DNA of 64,000 bases from Gallionella sp. (GTDB lineage: Bacteria > Pseudomonadota > Gammaproteobacteria > Burkholderiales > Gallionellaceae), in assembly GCA_028714075.1 (NCBI GenBank), contig JAQTMZ010000003.1, positions 186,001 through 250,000 of the forward strand, written 5' to 3'. Each line of letters opens with the position of its first letter. The first letter of the stretch is position 1. The notes under the pieces are model-generated. The model searched no databases. It worked only from the letters and a program-made list of their open reading frames with translations, and had not been told where the DNA came from. This document shows, piece by piece, positions 3,189-44,130 of this stretch. The translations under genes were made by a program, and so were the position numbers.

Positions 3189-5468
3189 TTAAAATTCTTC
3201 CCACTCACCATCGTCATCGCCGCCCGGCTTGGCTTTGGGTTTGACCGCCGCGGCCTTGCCCGGCGCAGCCTTGGCGACCGCCGTACCCTTGCGTGGCGGG
3301 GCGGCATGGTGCGCGGGAGCGCGTGCAGCGGGGGCCGTCTCGCGGCGCGCGACCGCCGTGCCGCTCGAGTGACTGTCCATCTTGAAGGTACCCACCGAGA
3401 CCGCCAGGTTCTGCGCCTGCTCTTCCAGCGATTCCGCCGCGGCCGCGGCCTCTTCGACCAGTGCGGCGTTTTGCTGGGTCACCTCGTCCATCTGGGTGAT
3501 GGCGGTATTGACCTGCTCGATGCCCTGGCTCTGTTCCTGCGATGCGGCGGTGATCTCGGACATGATGTCGGTCACGCGCTTGATCGCGGTGACGATCTCT
3601 TCCATGGTCTGCCCGGCCTGCGCGACCAGCTTGCTGCCGCCTTCGACCTTCTCGACCGAGTCGCCGATCAGCGTCTTGATTTCCTTGGCGGCGGCCGCAC
3701 TTCTTTGAGCGAGGTTACGCACTTCGCCGGCCACCACCGCGAAGCCGCGGCCCTGTTCGCCGGCACGGGCGGCTTCCACCGCCGCGTTGAGCGCGAGGAT
3801 GTTGGTCTGGAACGCGATGCCGTCGATCACGCTGATGATGTCCACGATCTTGCGCGACGATTCGTTGATCGAGTCCATCGTGGTGACCACCTGTCCGACC
3901 ACCGCACCGCCTTTGCCCGCCACGTCGGATGCGCCGATCGCGAGCTGGTTGGCCTGTTTGGCGTTCTCGGCGTTCTGCTTCACGGTCGAGGTCAGTTCTT
4001 CCATGCTGGAGGCGGTTTCCTCCAGGCTGCTAGCCTGTTCTTCGGTGCGTTGCGACAGGTCTTGGTTGCCTTGCGCAATTTCCTTGGAGGCGGTGTTGAT
4101 GGTGTCGGTGGCTTCCTTGATTTCGCCGACCAGTACCTTGAGGTTTTCTACTGTGCCGTTCACACCGGTCTTCATTTCACCGAAGGAGCCGGGATAATCC
4201 TTGCTGATGGTCTGGGTCAGGTCGCCCTTGGCCAGTGCATTGGCTACGCGCACCACGTCGGCAATGCCGGTTTCGGTGACGTTCGACAGCTGGTTGAGCA
4301 GTTCGGACAAGGTTTTGGTATAACCCTGCTTGCCGGTCATGTCCATCTTGACGGTGAAACTACCCTGATTGGCGGCGGCCTCGACGATGTTCTGGATTTC
4401 GCTGACGATCTTGGTCAGGGAATCGGCGGTGGTGTTGACGCTGACCTTGACCTGGTTGTAAGCACCGGAATATTCCTTGGTGACTTTCTGGCTCAGGTCG
4501 CCTTGGGCCAGCGCGTTGGCCACGCGTATGGTGTCCTTGAAAGCATCGTCGACGGTGTTGCTCAACTGGTTGAGCAACTCGGACAGGGTCTTGGTGTAAC
4601 CGGCCTTGCCGTTCATGTCCATTTTGACGCTGAAGTCGCCCTGTACGGCGGCCTGCACGATGCCCTGTATCTCGGCAACGATAGAGCGCAAACTATCCTG
4701 CATGGTCTTCAGCGAATACAGCAGGCTGCTGGTGTCGCCCGGTTTGAGCGCCAACTCAGCAGACAGGTCGCCGGCGGCGATCTTGCCGACCGCGTCCGCC
4801 GCGTAATCCGGCTCGCCGCCCAGTTGCTTCATCAGGCCGCGCACGATCATGAAAGCGACGATCACGCCGAGCAGAACCGCAATCAGCGAGATGACGATGA
4901 TGATGATCAGGGCAGTTTGCACCGACTTGTTCACTTCACCGCCGATTTCTGTCATCCGGTTGCTTTCCAGCACAACCAACTCGTTCACGGATTGGATATA
5001 GGCATCCTGGAGTTCCATTGCCTCTGCCATAAACAAGGCTTTCGCTTCAGCCTGCTTGCCTTCTTTCTGCAATTTCAAGAAGGCATCCTGGGCGCCCATG
5101 TACTTGCCGCGCATGTCCAGCACCTTATTCAGCGCGGCTTTGCCCTTTTCGGAAGCAATTGAGGCTTGCAGTTTTTCCAGATTTTCCTTGATGATTTTGC
5201 GCTGTGCGTCAATACTGACCAGTTCCTTCTGGATGGCTTCATGCCCTGTTACCAGCAGGGAGTCGCGCATAAGCACCCCGATTTTGTTGATGCCGTCGAT
5301 CATATTGTTCGCCTGCACCGTCTTGGGGAATTCATCGTTGATAATGTCATCAAGATTACCTTGAACACTGCGCATATTGGTGATGCCAAGCAGCGCAACG
5401 ATAATTAATAATACAATCACTGCGCCGAAGCCCAGCCCTAAACGGGTTCCCACTTTCATGCTAGCCAT
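3189..5468 (-). CDS. Methyl-accepting chemotaxis protein with a poly-HAMP array
   Basis: Chemoreceptor of 759 residues. A membrane segment (about 10-30) and a four-helix periplasmic domain are followed by a second membrane segment (about 187-212) and a HAMP domain. Next comes a tandem array of HAMP-like modules of about 90 residues, in which [15 protein letters not shown] and RVANALA-GDL each recur, and then the cytoplasmic signalling hairpin. The tail ends in EWEEF, a CheR/CheB tether-type pentapeptide. Compared with the neighbouring receptor the tail carries six extra residues (HHAAPP). The ATG at 5468 follows AAGGAG at good spacing. It lies directly downstream of cheW in the same direction, so it is probably part of the cheA-cheW operon. 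The ligand is unknown. Confidence 0.95.
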
Positions 5469-5499
5469 GATTTTCTCCTTGAAAAATTTAATTCTTAAT

Positions 5500-5985
5500 T
5501 TAAGCCGCAGCCATTTCGACCAGATCCATGTCGCGGCTGGTCATCAGTCTTTCGATGTCCACCACGATGATCATGCGGTCATCCACCGTGCCCAGCCCGG
5601 TGATGTACTGGGTGTCCAGCGCCGAGCTGAATTCCGGCGCGGGTTTCAGTTGTTCGGCGGTCAGCGTGATCACGTCCGACACGCCGTCCACCACGATGCC
5701 GACTACGCGGTTCGCGACGTTGAGGATGATGACCACGGTGAGCTGGTTGTAGGTCACGTTGCCGAGATGGAATTTGATGCGCATGTCGATGATCGGCACG
5801 ATGATGCCGCGCAGGTTGATCACGCCCTTGATGAACTCCGGGGAGTTGGCGATCGTGGTCACCGCGTCATAGCCGCGGATTTCCTGAACCTTGAGGATGT
5901 CGATGCCATATTCCTCGCTGCCCAGTGTAAAAGTCAACAGTTCGCGGCCTCCCGTATTCGCCGCCTGGCCTTCGTTTGCTTGCAT
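5500..5985 (-). CDS. cheW: Chemotaxis coupling protein CheW
   Basis: A single CheW domain fills the 161 residues. It bridges receptor tips and the CheA regulatory domain in the cytoplasmic signalling array. The family signature around [14 protein letters not shown] (about residues 55-70) and the C-terminal VVDIERL stretch are present, and the length is normal for CheW. It lies between cheA and the poly-HAMP receptor on the same strand with short spacers, so co-expression is likely. No receiver domain is attached, unlike the two cheV genes further upstream. Confidence 0.96.
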
Positions 5986-6048
5986 GGTGTCCTCCCTCTT
6001 TATGTTTTAACAGTTATTGTTTAACAGCATTGCTGATGCCTCACATGC

Positions 6049-6072
6049 AGGGGCGATTCGTGAATTGCCCCT
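6049..6072. repeat. REP-like palindrome overlapping the cheA stop
   Basis: AGGGGCGATTCGTGAATTGCCCCT is a near-perfect 24-base palindrome and overlaps the cheA stop codon (6071-6073). Related copies lie at 182-202 and 8326-8347. It could act as an mRNA 3'-end stabiliser or attenuator between cheA and cheW. Confidence 0.65.
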
Positions 6073-8215
6073 ACGCCTGCGCAAACTTGACCAGCGCGCC
6101 CACGTCCATAATCATCGCCACTCGCCCGTCGCCCATGATCGTGGCGCCCGATACCCCAACCACTTTACGGTAATTGGTTTCCAAGCTCTTGATCACCACC
6201 TGATGCTGGCTGACCAGGTCGTCCACGAACAATGCGATCTTTTTGCCTTCCGCTTCCAGTAACACCAATATACCTTTTGACGGATCGGTGATTTGGGTCT
6301 GGATATTAAACACCTGATGCAATGCGATTATCGGCAGGTATTCTCCACGCACATGTAGCACCTGCCCCTGCCCGCTGATTTCCTTGATGTCTTCAGCCTT
6401 GGGCTGCAACGATTCGATGATGAAGCTGAGCGGGACGATGTAAAGCTGGTCGCCCACCGCGATGGATAGGCCGTCCAGTATCGCCAGCGTCAGCGGCAGG
6501 CGGATGGTGACGGTGCTGCCTTCTCCAAACTTGGAGGAAATTTCGACGCGCCCACCGATGCCTTCGATATTTTTCTTTACCACGTCCATGCCGACCCCGC
6601 GCCCGGATACATCCGTGACCACGGCAGCGGTGGAAAAACCGGGTGCAAAGATCATCAGCCAGACATCGGCATCGCTGATGTTGTCGCTGAAGGGTATGCC
6701 TTTTTCTTTGGCTTTGGCGAGTATTCGTTCGCGATTCAACCCGCCACCGTCATCTATTACCTGGATAACGATGTTACCGCCCTGATGCGCGGCGCGCAGG
6801 GTAATGGTGCCTTGCGGGTCTTTGCCCCTGGCGATGCGCTCATCGGGCATTTCGATACCGTGATCGAGGCTGTTGCGCACCAGATGAGTGAGCGGATCGC
6901 TGATTTTTTCGATCAGTCCCTTGTCCAGCTCGGTACCTTCGCCGATCATTTTGAGCTGTACTTTTTTGTCGAGCTTGCCGGCCAGATCGCGCACCAGGCG
7001 CGGGAAACGGCTGAATACAAAATTGATCGGCATCATGCGCACCGACATGACGGCCTCCTGCAGTTCGCGGGTATTGAGTTCGAGCTGCGCCAATCCGTTG
7101 ACCAGCGATTCGTTCAATACCGGATCCAGATGAGAGGCGATTTCCGCCAGCATGGATTGGGTAATCACCAGCTCGCCGACCAGATTGATCATCTGGTCGA
7201 CTTTTTCCACGCTGACGCGGATCGAGGTTTCTGCAGCCGGTGCAGCGGCCGGTGTCCGGTCAGAGGCGCGGCGGTGTGGTTCTTCTATTGCCTGCTCCGC
7301 CGTTGCAGCGGATGCCGACGACGCTGTCTTATCTTCCACATCGACGAAAAAACCGTAACCCTGCGCATTTTCGGCTTCCGACTTGAGCGTTTCCGGCTCC
7401 ACGAAGAAACCATAACCCTGGGCATCTTCGGCCGCTGCCTGAAGCTGCTCCGGCTCGACAAAAAAGCCGTAGCCTTGCTCATCTTCGGAACTGGCGCTCA
7501 CGGCCTCTGCCGCCTGATCGCCAAGCAGCGTGATGGTGAGTTGTTCCGGTTCCAAAAAGAATGAGAAGGTATCGCGCAAGTCCTCTTCGGATGCGTAACT
7601 GGTCAGCGTTAGCGTTACCGAGTTGGCGGCAATTTCCTGTTTTTCGATCTTGCCAATATTACCCAGTTCTTCCAGCAGGTTGTCGAGTTCTGCTTTGCTT
7701 GGGAAAATGGCAGGGGATTTGTCGAACTTGACCTGATAAATATGCTGCACGGAAGGAGGTGCTGCTGCTTTTTGCCCGGGGCTGGAAGTTGTGGATACCG
7801 TCTTTTGCTCACCGCCTTGCTGCGTTCCTTTCGCGGTCAATTGCGCCAGCTTGGCGCGAATTTCGACCGATGGTGCGGGATCGGCGATAGTTCCATTCTG
7901 GTGCGCTTCCAGCAAGCCTTTCAGCACATCGCCCGCTTGCAGGAAGGCATCCACCATGTCGGCAGTAATCTTGATTTCATTTTTGCGTATGCCATCCAGC
8001 AGGGTTTCCAGGATGTGCGTCACTTCGGTCATGTCGTTGAAACCGAACGTGCCGCTGCCGCCTTTGATGGAATGTGCCGAACGGAAGATGGCGTTTAGCT
8101 GATCCGGGTCGGGCGCATCCAGATCAAGCGCGAGCAGCAGGCTTTCCATGCTATCGAGATGTTCGGCTGATTCTTCGAAGAACACCTGATAAAACTGGCT
8201 CATGTCGATGGACAT
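6071..8215 (-). CDS. cheA: Chemotaxis histidine kinase CheA (first copy)
   Basis: Kinase of 714 residues that phosphorylates CheY. An HPt domain (1-105) carries the phospho-accepting His48 in SAHSIKGG. A CheY-binding P2-like region follows (about 155-235), then an unusual linker with three QGYGFF repeats (244-295), a dimerisation helix pair (about 330-395), an ATPase domain with N box HLVRNSLDHG (444-453), G1 DDGGG (488-492) and G2 GRGVGMD (538-544), and a CheW-like regulatory domain to the C-terminus. All catalytic motifs are intact. The cheY at 8375 lies just upstream and cheW just downstream, so this is one complete signalling set; a second cheA at 10119 serves a second set. Confidence 0.97.
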   Translation of the reverse strand: MSIDMSQFYQVFFEESAEHLDSMESLLLALDLDAPDPDQLNAIFRSAHSIKGGSGTFGFNDMTEVTHILETLLDGIRKNEIKITADMVDAFLQAGDVLKGLLEAHQNGTIADPAPSVEIRAKLAQLTAKGTQQGGEQKTVSTTSSPGQKAAAPPSVQHIYQVKFDKSPAIFPSKAELDNLLEELGNIGKIEKQEIAANSVTLTLTSYASEEDLRDTFSFFLEPEQLTITLLGDQAAEAVSASSEDEQGYGFFVEPEQLQAAAEDAQGYGFFVEPETLKSEAENAQGYGFFVDVEDKTASSASAATAEQAIEEPHRRASDRTPAAAPAAETSIRVSVEKVDQMINLVGELVITQSMLAEIASHLDPVLNESLVNGLAQLELNTRELQEAVMSVRMMPINFVFSRFPRLVRDLAGKLDKKVQLKMIGEGTELDKGLIEKISDPLTHLVRNSLDHGIEMPDERIARGKDPQGTITLRAAHQGGNIVIQVIDDGGGLNRERILAKAKEKGIPFSDNISDADVWLMIFAPGFSTAAVVTDVSGRGVGMDVVKKNIEGIGGRVEISSKFGEGSTVTIRLPLTLAILDGLSIAVGDQLYIVPLSFIIESLQPKAEDIKEISGQGQVLHVRGEYLPIIALHQVFNIQTQITDPSKGILVLLEAEGKKIALFVDDLVSQHQVVIKSLETNYRKVVGVSGATIMGDGRVAMIMDVGALVKFAQA
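7331..7486 (-). repeat. Triple 19-residue repeat inside CheA linker
   Basis: Codons 244-295 encode three consecutive modules beginning EDEQGYGFF, EDAQGYGFF and ENAQGYGFF, each 19 codons apart. They lie in the linker between the CheY-binding region and the dimerisation domain. The aromatic core within acidic flanks looks like a repeated short binding motif, though no partner is evident. Confidence 0.8.
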
Positions 8216-37197: not shown

Positions 37198-37271
37198 GCG
37201 GGTGTAGTTCAATGGTAGAACGGCAGCTTCCCAAGCTGCATACGAGGGTTCGATCCCCTTCACCCGCTCCA
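37198..37271 (+). tRNA. tRNA-Gly (CCC anticodon)
   Basis: A complete cloverleaf: acceptor arm GCGGGTG/CACCCGC, D arm with AATGGTAG, anticodon stem GCAGC/GCTGC around loop TTCCCAA, and T arm GGGTTCGATCCCC. The anticodon is CCC, reading GGG. The CCA end is encoded. It lies divergent to thiS and directly precedes a small accessory patch. Confidence 0.96.
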
Positions 37272-37331
37272 GTTGCGCTGCTTTAGTAGTGTGCTTGTAG
37301 AATCCACTTCGGTTCGAACAAGGGGTGTGCC

Positions 37332-37532
37332 ATGTTGAGTATAGAAAGTCTGACCCGCACAGAGAAGCTGCGCATGATGGAGGCGATCTGGGATGACTTG
37401 GCGCGCGATCCGGCAGCGCTCACCTCACCCGAATGGCATGCGCAGGCACTAAAAGACGCCGAACATGCACATACGGAAAATCAGGCCATGTTTGTGTCTT
37501 GGGATATCGCCAAGAAAAAACTGCGCGCCTGA
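37332..37532 (+). CDS. Addiction-module antitoxin-like small protein, toxin missing
   Basis: Protein of 66 residues with LTRTEKLRMMEAIWDDLARDP and SPEWHAQALKDAE, the pattern of the family annotated as putative addiction module component, whose partners are usually RelE/ParE-like toxins. GGGGTG lies about nine bases upstream of the ATG. No toxin frame follows in the next 180 bases, so it appears to be an orphan antitoxin. It lies 60 bases downstream of tRNA-Gly. Family assignment is by resemblance. Confidence 0.75.
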   Translation: MLSIESLTRTEKLRMMEAIWDDLARDPAALTSPEWHAQALKDAEHAHTENQAMFVSWDIAKKKLRA

Positions 37533-37692
37533 CTACTACCACCCTTTTCGCAGCATCTTCCCCTGCAAAATAGGCCTTTCGGCATATTGACCGTATGACA
37601 TGTGCGGGTTAGTGTGCACCCAAGCCGTTTGAGCGAAATTGAATCACCAAGTTTTATCCATTTACCCTGATAAAAGATTAGGTTCTTTATTA

Positions 37693-37713
37693 GGGGCTAC
37701 TTAACGTTATGCC
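37693..37713 (+). other. Integron attC-like right core site upstream of the cassette gene
   Basis: CTACTTAACGTTATGCC ends in AACGTTATGC, the L'-R' form of an attC site (consensus GTTRRRY, one mismatch). The start codon of the following gene lies only two bases later, a spacing typical of gene cassettes. The R' octamer GTTATGCC is the exact complement of GGCATAAC at 38738. Confidence 0.5.
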
Positions 37714-37715
37714 TC

Positions 37716-38744
37716 ATGACTAGCGGTTTTCCTACCTACACCCACGGCGCTAAACAAGGCGAGCGCGGCGTCAATCTCTTGTCTGGAATTGTCCATGACG
37801 AATTCGGCTGGCTATTTAAGCGCAACCACCAAGAACATGATTTCGGAATTGACGCCCATATTGAGGTAGTTCAAGACGACGGTGCGGTTACAGGTCAAAT
37901 GCTTGGCATCCAAATTAAGCACGGCGCATCTTTTACAAAGGAGAAGAATAGATGGGGGTATGTCTATCGCGGTGAGCTCAAGCACTTCAACTACCTATCG
38001 AACTACCCACTCCCGGTCATCATCGTCTTGTGTGACCCAGAATCGGGTGAGTGCTATTGGGAAACCTTCTCACCAGAAAAAACCACTCGCACCAAGAGTG
38101 GTTGGCACATGACAGTGCCACAAGAGAACGTGTTTCGCACGTCAAAGAAAGCTCTTCTTTCATTGCTTAGATCATCCCATGATGCACTCTCCGAACTTGA
38201 GGAGTACTGGGCGCTGAACAAAATGATCGTAGACGCATCACGCGTTTTCTACGCAATAGATATCGCTGAGGTTAGAAGTAAATCGGTTGTGCGCGTAAGG
38301 GATTTCATTAAACATCTTTGCACGACAAAGGAACTTGCCTACGAGTGCCAAGGTAAGATCGAGTTCACATTCTCAGGCTATGACGACGACCCGAGGGAGG
38401 TGTTCGAGATCGAAGAAGTCAGGCAGTATGTTGCTCTACTTGAACAGGCAATTCCGAATCTGCTGTTCTTCGCTGCCGCAGACTCCGCAAGGTCATCGCT
38501 CAGAATCATTGGGCTTTGTCTCACTGGCGTGTCATGGGAAAGTGATCGCTCGACGCGACAAGTTACTCGCAGGGTAATCATAGAAACTAAGGGCGTTGCC
38601 CAATTCCTAGAGCGGCAGTTCCCCGGGCTGAACGAGATGACTGAATGGCTCGGGATGTCGGAGGACCAGAATAGGCGCATCACCTACGCAGTTGCAAAGT
38701 GCGTTGGATTTTCTACACCAGAAGGTGGTGCCTATGAGGCATAA
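37716..38744 (+). CDS. DUF4365-like protein in an integron-cassette-like setting
   Basis: Protein of 342 residues. The N-terminal part (FGWLFKRNHQEHDFGIDAHI, then GIQIKHG) resembles the DUF4365 family, which has a PD-(D/E)xK nuclease-like layout: Asp46, Glu50 and Gln66-x-Lys68 are candidate catalytic residues. The C-terminal part has no clear assignment to me and resembles regions often fused to DUF4365. The DNA is visibly more AT-rich than its neighbours. The start lies two bases after one attC-like core and the stop TAA overlaps another, as in integron cassettes. A nuclease or defence role is inferred only. No integrase is in the window. Confidence 0.8.
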   Translation: MTSGFPTYTHGAKQGERGVNLLSGIVHDEFGWLFKRNHQEHDFGIDAHIEVVQDDGAVTGQMLGIQIKHGASFTKEKNRWGYVYRGELKHFNYLSNYPLPVIIVLCDPESGECYWETFSPEKTTRTKSGWHMTVPQENVFRTSKKALLSLLRSSHDALSELEEYWALNKMIVDASRVFYAIDIAEVRSKSVVRVRDFIKHLCTTKELAYECQGKIEFTFSGYDDDPREVFEIEEVRQYVALLEQAIPNLLFFAAADSARSSLRIIGLCLTGVSWESDRSTRQVTRRVIIETKGVAQFLERQFPGLNEMTEWLGMSEDQNRRITYAVAKCVGFSTPEGGAYEA

Positions 38745-38785
38745 CCCTTCGTTGTGGGGGATGCTCCAGCACCCCTGACTAGCAG
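38738..38785 (+). other. Integron attC-like left half site at the cassette 3' end
   Basis: GGCATAACCCTTCGTTG matches the start of many attC sites (R'' followed by CCTTCG). It overlaps the stop codon of the cassette gene. A small hairpin, GGGGATGCT against AGCACCCC, follows, but a terminal GTTRRRY is missing, so the site looks truncated or decayed. Confidence 0.5.
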
Positions 38786-38813
38786 CACGCCACCAGCCAA
38801 GTGTTTCCCGCTC

Positions 38814-39635
38814 CTACTTGATCCGATACAGCCGCTTCTCCAGCGTCTTGCCCTTCACCGCATCGAAGCTCTCGCCCATCGCGACTCCCAGTTTGCCCAG
38901 GCGGTCATCGGGGTGCGGGTGGGTCTTGAACAGCAGCGCGACGCCGCCATCGTCCTTGGCGAAGTGGCCGATCTGTTGCAGTACCGTGGGCAGGCCGAAC
39001 GCGTCGTAACCCGCGCGCGTGGCGAGCACGACGGCGATGCGGTCGGCTTCGAATTCGGCTTCCTTGTCCAGCGAGCGCGACACGATCTCCGCGCCGCTGC
39101 CGATCAATCCCTGCACCTTGTCGTTGCCGCCGACGTTCTTGGCGACCAATTGGCTGCCCAGGTCGAGCAGCTTGCCCTGCTGCAAAATTTTCAGGTGATG
39201 CTGGCGGATCACATGGCCGACCTCATGCGCCAGCACTCCGGCCAGTTCGGCCTCGCTCTGCAACATCCGGTACAGGCCGCGTGTGAGAAAGATGTAGCCG
39301 CCGGGCGCGGCGAACGCGTTCACGTCGTTCGATTCGATCACGCCGAAATGCCAGGCCAGATCGGGCCGCTCGCTCTGGTCGGCGACCCAGCGTCCGACGC
39401 TGTTGACGTACTTTTGCAGCTTCACATCCTTGACCAGCGGCGCGGCGCCGAGCAGGTTTCCGGCGATCTGCCGCCCGATGGCGGTTTCCTCTTCGACCGA
39501 GGTGGCGGGCTTGCCGGTCACCTTTTCCTGCACGCCCTGTTTCAGCGTATTCATCAATTGCTGCTCGAACGGGTTTGCGCCCCATGCGGTTGTGGAGAAC
39601 AGTAGTCCTAGAATCCATAAAGTTTTGCGGCTCAT
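38814..39635 (-). CDS. Periplasmic M48-family metalloprotease
   Basis: Zinc peptidase of 273 residues from the ATG at 39635, which has AAGGAG upstream. A signal peptide ends near TTAWGA. The zinc site HEVGH (in LAHEVGHVIRQHH) and a downstream EAEFEAD motif supplying the third ligand are intact. It resembles periplasmic BepA- or Oma1-like quality-control proteases without TPR repeats. It is the last gene of a CHASE2 / SH3 / M48 trio with a ten-base spacer from the SH3 gene. Confidence 0.92.
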   Translation of the reverse strand: MSRKTLWILGLLFSTTAWGANPFEQQLMNTLKQGVQEKVTGKPATSVEEETAIGRQIAGNLLGAAPLVKDVKLQKYVNSVGRWVADQSERPDLAWHFGVIESNDVNAFAAPGGYIFLTRGLYRMLQSEAELAGVLAHEVGHVIRQHHLKILQQGKLLDLGSQLVAKNVGGNDKVQGLIGSGAEIVSRSLDKEAEFEADRIAVVLATRAGYDAFGLPTVLQQIGHFAKDDGGVALLFKTHPHPDDRLGKLGVAMGESFDAVKGKTLEKRLYRIK

Positions 39636-42879: not shown

Positions 42880-44130
42880 TTAATGCGGAACCAGCAGCAA
42901 GTAAGCACTCAGCCCCACCATGACCAGGCCGCTGACCAGCTTGAGCCAGCGCCCCTCTTTTTCCTGAAGGCGGCGCTGGCTGAGCGTAATTACACCGATG
43001 GACAAAACGATCACGTCATCGAGCATGTAGGCCAGATCGTAAAGCAGGAGGTAGCCGTAATAGCTCAGGCTATCCAGTTGCCTCAGCGTCAATATCCGCG
43101 TGAACAGCGCCGGAAAACCCGAGGTGCACATGAATTCCACGATCTGCACCAGGACAGCCAGCACCGCTGCGCCGAGTATCGCGCCGCCAAGATTCTCGGC
43201 TTGCAGGATGCGCCGTATGCGCACGTAGATGCCCGGCTTCGCGGCAGCGGGTATCGAGAGCGAGACTCCCCGGCCAAAGGCCCGGAAGTCCTTGAGATTG
43301 ATCGCTCCCGCCAGCAACGCCAGCGTGGCGACGATGATCTCCGAGGCGCGCGACAGGCCGATCAGCAGAAAAAGATTGAGCCAAGCCGCCATGAAAACAA
43401 AATAGGCAATGCCTTCCACGGCGACAAATGTGCCGGCGATGGCGAGCATCCGCGAACGGTTATTCATCGGGGCCAGCAGCGAGATCATCAGGAGCAATAC
43501 CCACATGGAGCAGGGATTGAAGCCGTCCAGCAAACCCATCGCCAGCGTGAACAGCGGCAGGCCGACCCGATCGGGCGACACGCTGTGGCCGAAGAAATCG
43601 ACGGCGAATATCTCCGGCCTGGCAGCAGGAACGGGCGCATCCGCGCCGCAAGTCAGGCGCTCTTCGGCCTCGCAATTGCCTGTGACATTATTTGTTTTTC
43701 GGCTTTGCTGCCGTGCTCTGGCGAGGCCGTCGCGAATGAGCCGGCCGGTGGTTGCATCGTCGGAAAAGCCGACGATCAATTGCCCGCCCAGCGCAAATGC
43801 CGGCACTCGCACTGCCGCGGTATCTTGGCCTTCGGCGAGGTGTTTTAACCGCTCCAGAGCCGCCGGCTCCCGATGTACATCGCGAACAACAATCCTCAAT
43901 TCCGGCTGTTCCCGTTGCAGTGTTGTCAGGAACGCTTCGGCCTTGGCGCAGTGCGGGCAGCCCTCGCGGACAAAAACTTCAATGTCGGCGGACTGTACAG
44001 CGATGTCTTCGGCATGTACCGGCGATGAGGCCGCCGCTGTGGCAGACGCAGCGGCACACCAACCTGAAGCCGATATCAGCAACAAGATTACGCAGCACTT
44101 TGCAATAAATAGTTTGACCATCGTTTTCAA
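42880..44130 (-). CDS. Thioredoxin-like / CcdA-like fusion membrane protein
   Basis: Protein of 416 residues. A signal-anchor (about 5-26) precedes a periplasmic thioredoxin- or glutaredoxin-like domain with C58-P-H-C61 and the cis-proline VP (109-110). A membrane domain of six or seven helices follows, with Cys207 in DGFNPCSMW and a second cysteine in VEFMCTSGFP, the cysteine pair layout of CcdA/DsbD electron carriers. It probably moves reducing equivalents across the membrane to periplasmic thiols. The start is TTG at 44130 with GGAGG five bases upstream, or the ATG at 44121. Confidence 0.85.
   Translation of the reverse strand: MKTMVKLFIAKCCVILLLISASGWCAAASATAAASSPVHAEDIAVQSADIEVFVREGCPHCAKAEAFLTTLQREQPELRIVVRDVHREPAALERLKHLAEGQDTAAVRVPAFALGGQLIVGFSDDATTGRLIRDGLARARQQSRKTNNVTGNCEAEERLTCGADAPVPAARPEIFAVDFFGHSVSPDRVGLPLFTLAMGLLDGFNPCSMWVLLLMISLLAPMNNRSRMLAIAGTFVAVEGIAYFVFMAAWLNLFLLIGLSRASEIIVATLALLAGAINLKDFRAFGRGVSLSIPAAAKPGIYVRIRRILQAENLGGAILGAAVLAVLVQIVEFMCTSGFPALFTRILTLRQLDSLSYYGYLLLYDLAYMLDDVIVLSIGVITLSQRRLQEKEGRWLKLVSGLVMVGLSAYLLLVPH

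Follow-up and report, generated by a model that had tools for sequence, protein, structure and literature searches.

Can a gene framed by complementary ends be an integron cassette when no integrase accompanies it, and how would it have come to lie where it does? This question is raised by a DUF4365 gene in a 64,000-nucleotide stretch of a Gallionella sp. contig (JAQTMZ010000003.1; the whole stretch is called the window here), in which the original prediction, made from the letters alone, saw a mobile, defence-type nuclease cassette stranded in a chromosome. Very probably, one integron gene cassette occupies an attI site here whose integrase gene is gone or was never present; the cassette would later have lost the 3' half of its attC, and its product is probably a nuclease effector. 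The part of the prediction that concerned an integron cassette without an integrase held, because the 5' flank matches attI, a homologous gene lies in an Aquabacterium integron array, the corresponding site is empty in some relatives, and the host genome has no integrase over cut-off.

The ends of the gene are as they had been described. GTTATGCC occupies 37706-37713, with the ATG at 37716, two bases on, and its complement GGCATAAC occupies 38738-38745, spans the TAA stop (38742-38744) and is followed directly by CCTTCG. The perfect inverted repeat comprises 12 nt (37706-37717 and 38734-38745). Among the 191 open reading frames of at least 100 amino acids in the six frames of the window, end-to-end inverted repeats of 8, 9 or 10 nt occur in the DUF4365 gene alone, and those of 7 nt in three. 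The gene starts 10 nt past the G/TT crossover, and homology to attI stops at the GTT of 37706-37708, so that the element begins as a cassette does, at the crossover of an attI or of a previous attC. The gene is also AT-richer than its surroundings, as predicted (GC 0.497 against 0.582 for the window), and the dip in GC within the window is confined to about 37250-38750.

Features of the DUF4365 locus (positions of the window; + and - denote strands)
Feature	Position	Strand	Description and basis
tRNA-Gly (CCC)	37198..37271	+	left anchor of the variable site; ARAGORN; distance to the M48 gene 29-49 nt in 4 relatives
Possible cassette promoter	37571..37615	+	TAGGCCTTTCGGCATAT (37571-37587), TTGACC (37587-37592), 17 nt, TAGTGT (37610-37615); by eye, weak
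attI site	37649..37708	+	crossover GTT 37706-37708; DNA matches to the attI of G102:C51 and G145:C87; no intI within 1.6 kb upstream (tblastn)
Gene cassette	37706..38789	+	GTTATGCC to last attC-like base; complementary ends GTTATGC / GCATAAC
DUF4365 + Crr6-like protein gene	37716..38744	+	342 aa, probable PD-(D/E)xK nuclease (D46, E50, Q66, K68); Pfam, PDB sequence match to DREN, conserved residues
attC remnant	38738..38789	+	R'' GGCATAAC, CCTTCG, L''-like GTTG(T)GGGG, L'-like CCCCTGAC, 3' R' box absent; read against attC alignment; model R1 negative; no attC fold
M48 peptidase gene	38817..39623	-	right anchor of the variable site, convergent; PF01435, E 1.1e-29

When 37640-37716 was searched against 76 genomes of the same genus, it matched, besides the window, two places only. 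Positions 37665-37708 resemble the attI that adjoins an intact intI in G145 (89% over 44 nt, E 8.7e-10), and 37649-37708 resemble an attI without an adjacent intI in G102 (83% over 60 nt, E 9.2e-12). Both matches end at query base 69, corresponding to 37708, where the crossover GTT ends. Because the match to an intI-adjacent attI ends at the crossover, the 5' flank is attI. The attC-flanked layout first proposed therefore stands as a cassette, but its 5' flank is attI rather than attC and its 3' attC is a remnant only. The intI of G145 is intact, with 326 of 326 residues aligned (the protein of G145 was itself among the queries); the DNA divergent to it (L064, L159) has CCCGATAAAAGATTAGGTCTTTTATTGGGGCCTACTTAACGTT, and the corresponding sequence of the window is CCTGATAAAAGATTAGGTTCTTTATTAGGGGCTACTTAACGTT. 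Downstream of the G102 attI are two attC matches, of 67.9 bits (a member of the training set of the attC model described below) and 28.5 bits, and no IntI was found within 1.6 kb upstream.

An intI adjoining attI, as in a complete integron, was likewise absent from the window, where tblastn gave no IntI within 1.6 kb upstream of attI. The host genome (G000; 100% complete) has no integron integrase over the TIGR02249 cut-off of 265 bits; the best of its nine matches scored 83.9 bits, at a loose E-value at which all 14 control genomes also give TIGR02249 matches. Half of the genus genomes (38 of 76) encode a protein over this cut-off.

To describe the 3' flank we used R1, a covariance model made from 27 aligned attC (26 of the same genus and one of Thiorhodococcus) and comprising 18 pairs, in 10 of which both sides vary. 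At the 3' end of the cassette R1 detected no attC (best 6.7 bits, E 0.71, in an unfiltered search of 2.1 kb). Across the whole window the cassette end was absent from the matches at E 10 and no attC was found at E <0.1; the best match, at 43762-43836, is unrelated (16.5 bits, E 0.1). In place of a complete attC (R'', L'', L', R') there is only R''-CCTTCG with degenerate L boxes. The CCTTCG spacer is also present in attC of the same genus (e.g., L060), and the attC-like stretch ends in CACG (38789) and continues with CC rather than TT, so that the missing 3' GTTRRRY had been read correctly. Folding of single-stranded 38738-38800, proposed with the original prediction as a check, gave no attC fold, the result being no better than shuffles (z +1.2). 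The z values of other attC were -5.8 (L143), +0.15 (L034, an accepted attC) and -0.37 (L013); since the last two also fold no better than shuffles, folding alone decides little. A 16-nt pattern of the attC 5' half, with two mismatches allowed, matched the window once against 0.24 expected, and 23 of 100 shuffles contained at least one match. As such a half is not rare by chance, the 3' motif is weak by itself, and it is the attI, the paired ends and genome comparison that carry the cassette reading. The element is a cassette by origin and is broken now. Among other searches for attC, simple R-box pairing gave nothing at the window cassette, and a broad pairing scan gave too many false matches and was replaced by a stricter one.

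From left to right, the locus consists of the tRNA-Gly (CCC) gene, a small antitoxin-type gene, the DUF4365 gene and the convergent M48 gene. The M48 gene was matched in 42 of the 76 genus genomes, with 30 loci listed, one of them the window's own. Among the 29 other listed loci, all of relatives, nine have a tRNA-Gly within 1.5 kb of the M48 gene; four of these nine are empty, with 29, 45, 46 and 49 nt between the two genes, and five are filled, with intervals of 340, 594, 968, 1013 and 1099 nt. Three filled sites have an attI-like junction: L034, with a NERD-domain gene and an attC of 43.6 bits; L026, with a gene without family match and an attC of 34.6 bits (both attC found by R1 and outside its training set); and L032, where R1 found no attC. 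The remaining two (L028, L029) have neither attI-like junction nor attC, by R1 or by eye. At L035 a different gene has cassette-like ends and an attC minus its 3' end (by eye only), and the tRNA is out of reach. It had been stated beforehand that the cassette reading would fail if no attC model matched either end and if DUF4365 homologues lay at the same locus with conserved flanks in related genomes. The attC model was indeed negative at both ends, but relatives do not share the DUF4365 gene as a conserved neighbour at this locus.

A scan of the genome collection for the DUF4365 gene, by a method that catches close relatives only, yielded 12 relatives (L013-L024), and thus 13 loci with that of the window. 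Six of the 13, the window included, have the cassette signature, in which a GTT precedes the start codon by 10 nt and a complementary R'' follows the gene; the others are L013, L014, L015, L021 and, with one mismatch, L024. The remaining seven have no such signature. In Aquabacterium fontiphilum (L015), the DUF4365 gene is part of an array and is flanked by attC at 3880-3997 (26.7 bits) and 5060-5176 (37.1 bits); the integrase of this array is intact and scores 383.8 bits on TIGR02249 (cut-off 265). A homologue is therefore present in a bona fide array, where the original prediction had suggested looking for it. L013 has a weak attC (22.8 bits, E 0.014), at L014 only the beginning of an attC is visible and R1 was negative, and the attC of L021 scores 64 bits but belongs to the R1 training set. 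In L021 (Thiorhodococcus), a transposase ORF (5014-6360) separates the DUF4365 gene from the attC, and the DUF4365 frame is broken. Intact transfer between relatives was considered and rejected: any match occurred in three other genomes of 149, at full length only in G130 and there at another genomic place. A search of plasmids with the protein returned 35 records, one covering at least 80% of the query and none above 60% identity.

In the mechanism that we propose, an IntI, either supplied in trans or once resident at the site, would have recombined the attC of the circular cassette with attI at G/TT (37706). The recombination would have put GTTATGCC next to attI, with the gene 10 nt past the crossover, and the attC would afterwards have lost its 3' half. 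The junction itself shows insertion by IntI at G/TT, whereas the order of events and the immobility of the cassette are what we infer. As the 3' half of the attC is lost, the cassette should be non-excisable, and its excision would no longer be expected.

Sites resembling this attI are scattered through the genus. Twenty-nine of the 76 genus genomes contain the pattern TCTAYWTTACGTTRR, which was derived from sites beside intI; it has 48 occurrences in all, and three when read backwards. Upstream and on the opposite strand of the 44 places examined, 11 had an intact IntI, 6 a fragment (that at L112 weak, with 30% identity) and 27 none detectable, counting among the 44 three sites with short upstream sequence (L128, 126 nt; L135, 474 nt; L151, 843 nt). 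A second copy of the L128 sequence, L178, with 1.5 kb upstream, has no IntI, and two of the four places outside the 44 (G118:C30, G123:C127) have an IntI 150-170 nt away. R1 placed an attC downstream in the correct orientation at 16 of the 27 intI-less sites and 2 of the 6 fragment sites; at about two-thirds of these 18 the attC is in the training set and matches by construction, and attC outside it are those of L139, L144, L146, L148 and L153 and second sites in L120 and L122. The other 11 intI-less sites were attC-negative in the 1.5-2.3 kb seen. A second attI type, TTTTTGCCRTCTAYTTTACGTT, occurs at 25 places in 15 of 158 family genomes (none backwards), some of which overlap the TCTAYWTTACGTTRR set; one has a full IntI, two have part of one and 22 have none. 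These counts, from genomes many of which are MAG-like drafts where assembly artefacts or strain mixing are possible, with full flanks at most sites, indicate that, in the genus, attI-like sites more often lack an intact integrase than have one. The idea that the TTTTTGCCRTCTA attI type never has an integrase was rejected, as L175 has one (62.8% identity, positions 1-323).

The host genome has two further attI-like sites, C4:28475 and C1:247528. The former (L143, 28475-28489) is integrase-less and has a complete attC (70.9 bits, training set) and a HEPN-like product below cut-off; the latter (L142, 247528-247542) is attC-negative by R1 and has a membrane-type product. Within each of two genomes, about 100 nt upstream are shared among sites (L147, L148 and L149 in G080; L133 and L151 in G052), ending near a degraded intI start. 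At L166 (G144:C58), a stop-interrupted IntI adjoins an attI of the second type.

Could the cassette have been inserted without any attI platform? IntI can act at secondary, non-attI sites, and such attG insertions are described, as a term and in E. coli libraries, in passages of PMC12444791; an insertion of this kind beside the tRNA gene would agree with the absence of any intI trace upstream. We consider it very unlikely. The homology of 37649-37708 to attI sites, one of them intI-adjacent, goes far beyond a GTT motif and strongly disfavours attG, and an attI-like junction also occurs at this site in three relatives (L026, L032, L034). It is hardly tenable that the 12-nt repeat arose by chance, or is the terminal repeat of some other one-gene element, and that the gene is an ordinary island gene beside a tRNA. 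tRNA genes are common island sites, the attC model is negative and seven of the 13 homologous loci lack the cassette ends, but five other DUF4365 loci have the same ends at the same spacing, L015 is an integron array, and other attC-bearing cassettes occupy the same site in relatives. The attI upstream of the window gene already contradicts this explanation.

What kind of attI the cassette sits in is less clear-cut. There is about an even chance that the locus is all that is left of a complete resident integron, whose intI and other cassettes were deleted, and that the attI is a dead relic rather than a site for docking in trans. The intI fragments kept at 6 of the 44 attI-like sites, the weak one included, and the stop-interrupted IntI of L166 are in keeping with this, and PMC9024848 terms CALINs degraded integrons. 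Against it, the interval between tRNA and attI is short (about 130 nt or less) and without intI trace in L026, L032 and L034, and the presence of different cassettes at the same site in different species requires insertion or exchange, although insertion before the loss is possible. Tentatively, and with some doubt, we put forward a broader picture of the genus, in which attI sites would serve as dispersed docking points that lack an integrase, some of them downstream of a host promoter; one IntI encoded elsewhere in the cell could load and unload, in trans, the one or few cassettes at each. In such a distributed integron, the site in the window would be one where damage to the attC fixed the nuclease cassette in place. 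In the open-licence literature searched, no work was found on integrase-less attI sites scattered in Gallionellaceae and none joining Gallionella and integron integrase.

The product of the cassette is probably a DUF4365 nuclease of the PD-(D/E)xK type, as judged from its sequence. Residues 17-148 match PF14280 (E 3.7e-32; 111.7 bits against a gathering cut-off of 24.3). A profile of 10 homologues matched in the PDB, over the N-terminal region only, the DREN-APAZ protein 9jsb (E 1.3e-5) and the DUF4365 proteins 9qbq (6.2e-5) and 9qbp (6.9e-5). D46, Q66 and K68 are invariant in all 10 aligned proteins, position 50 is D or E in all, and the three invariant residues align with D41, Q60 and K62 of 9jsb, so that the protein has the catalytic residues of DREN and PD-(D/E)xK enzymes. 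Passages of PMC12205087 give these three as catalytic in the system of 9jsb, where D41A and Q60A abolish activity and K62A impairs it; for a related enzyme with nonspecific DNA degradation, Q62 and K64 are given as potential active-site residues in passages of PMC10810196. PADLOC assigned residues 9-133 to its model of an Ago-associated REase (E 7.6e-20). The D...E...QxK pattern noticed at the outset, and the DUF4365 nuclease deduced from it, are thus borne out at the level of sequence comparison. The C-terminal half is Crr6-like: the window protein is below the cut-offs for Crr6 (PF08847, 18.6 against 25 bits; NCBIfam, 23.3 against 125), and Crr6 is matched by nine of 10 homologues with E values of 0.01 or lower (best 1.4e-8). 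Pfam shows DUF4365 and Crr6 only, and neither an APAZ domain nor a short pAgo partner, as in SPARDA, was found; the scanned neighbours are antitoxin, M48, SH3, ThiG and ThiS genes. The protein shares the DUF4365 PD-(D/E)xK domain and the same D, Q and K with the SPARDA DREN (DUF4365-APAZ), as described in parts of PMC12205087 and PMC10810196, but differs from it in a Crr6-like rather than APAZ C-terminus and in a cassette without an Argonaute gene. A Pseudanabaena DUF4365-DUF1817 protein (NZ_AP017565) has the same layout of two domains (32% identity over 99%) and is encoded on a cyanobacterial plasmid. The nuclease domain would cleave DNA on a trigger, and it is our guess that the Crr6-like half senses this trigger. 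A defence function of the nuclease cassette, and its stranded state, both part of the original prediction, are likely.

Among the nearest described systems are CALIN and single-attC loci, in the terms of IntegronFinder (PMC9024848, in part), which are likewise chromosomal cassettes without an integrase nearby. By the default given there, a CALIN has at least two attC and no intI, whereas R1 gives no attC in the window at E <0.1; the locus keeps its attI and its sole attC is broken. An attC-based finder, if it behaved like R1, would therefore miss it, and attI outside class 1 are, according to the same text, poorly described and not detected. The CALINs of Xanthomonas (PMC12444791, in part) likewise occupy conserved chromosomal positions across species, away from intI, but are defined by at least two attC, with attI not described in the passages at hand, whereas the window has one cassette at an attI beside tRNA-Gly. 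The delta-attI cassettes of mobile integrons are treated in parts of PMC12901181. The locus is thus a cassette platform recognisable through attI alone, and two usable attI sequence types are gained for one bacterial family. The DUF4365 nuclease family joins the genes carried as integron cassettes; in the open-licence literature searched, integrons and DUF4365 were found together only for genomic islands related to SGI1. If defence is confirmed, the locus would support integrons as stores of antiphage genes, an idea mentioned in passages of PMC12444791.

Left of the attI, the window has an orphan Unstab_antitox gene (37332-37529; PF09720, E 2.1e-12), and the segment that contains it, about 37272-37545, is missing after tRNA-Gly in L026, L032 and L034. 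The candidate promoter stretch that follows recurs at the corresponding site in L026 (86% over 81 nt) and in L032, and a consensus promoter scan gave nothing at 37571-37615 at its threshold. Its elements, TTGACC and TAGTGT 17 nt apart, suggest that the cassette may be expressed from an upstream host promoter. TAGGCCTTTCGGCATAT was rejected as an integron element, as it is dispersed upstream of many genes. It is present in 27 of 76 genus genomes with one mismatch allowed (one in the backwards control), often directly before TTG, and precedes attI-like sites in L026, L032, L034, L137, L163 and L089, in some with mismatches. It looks like a transcription-factor site.
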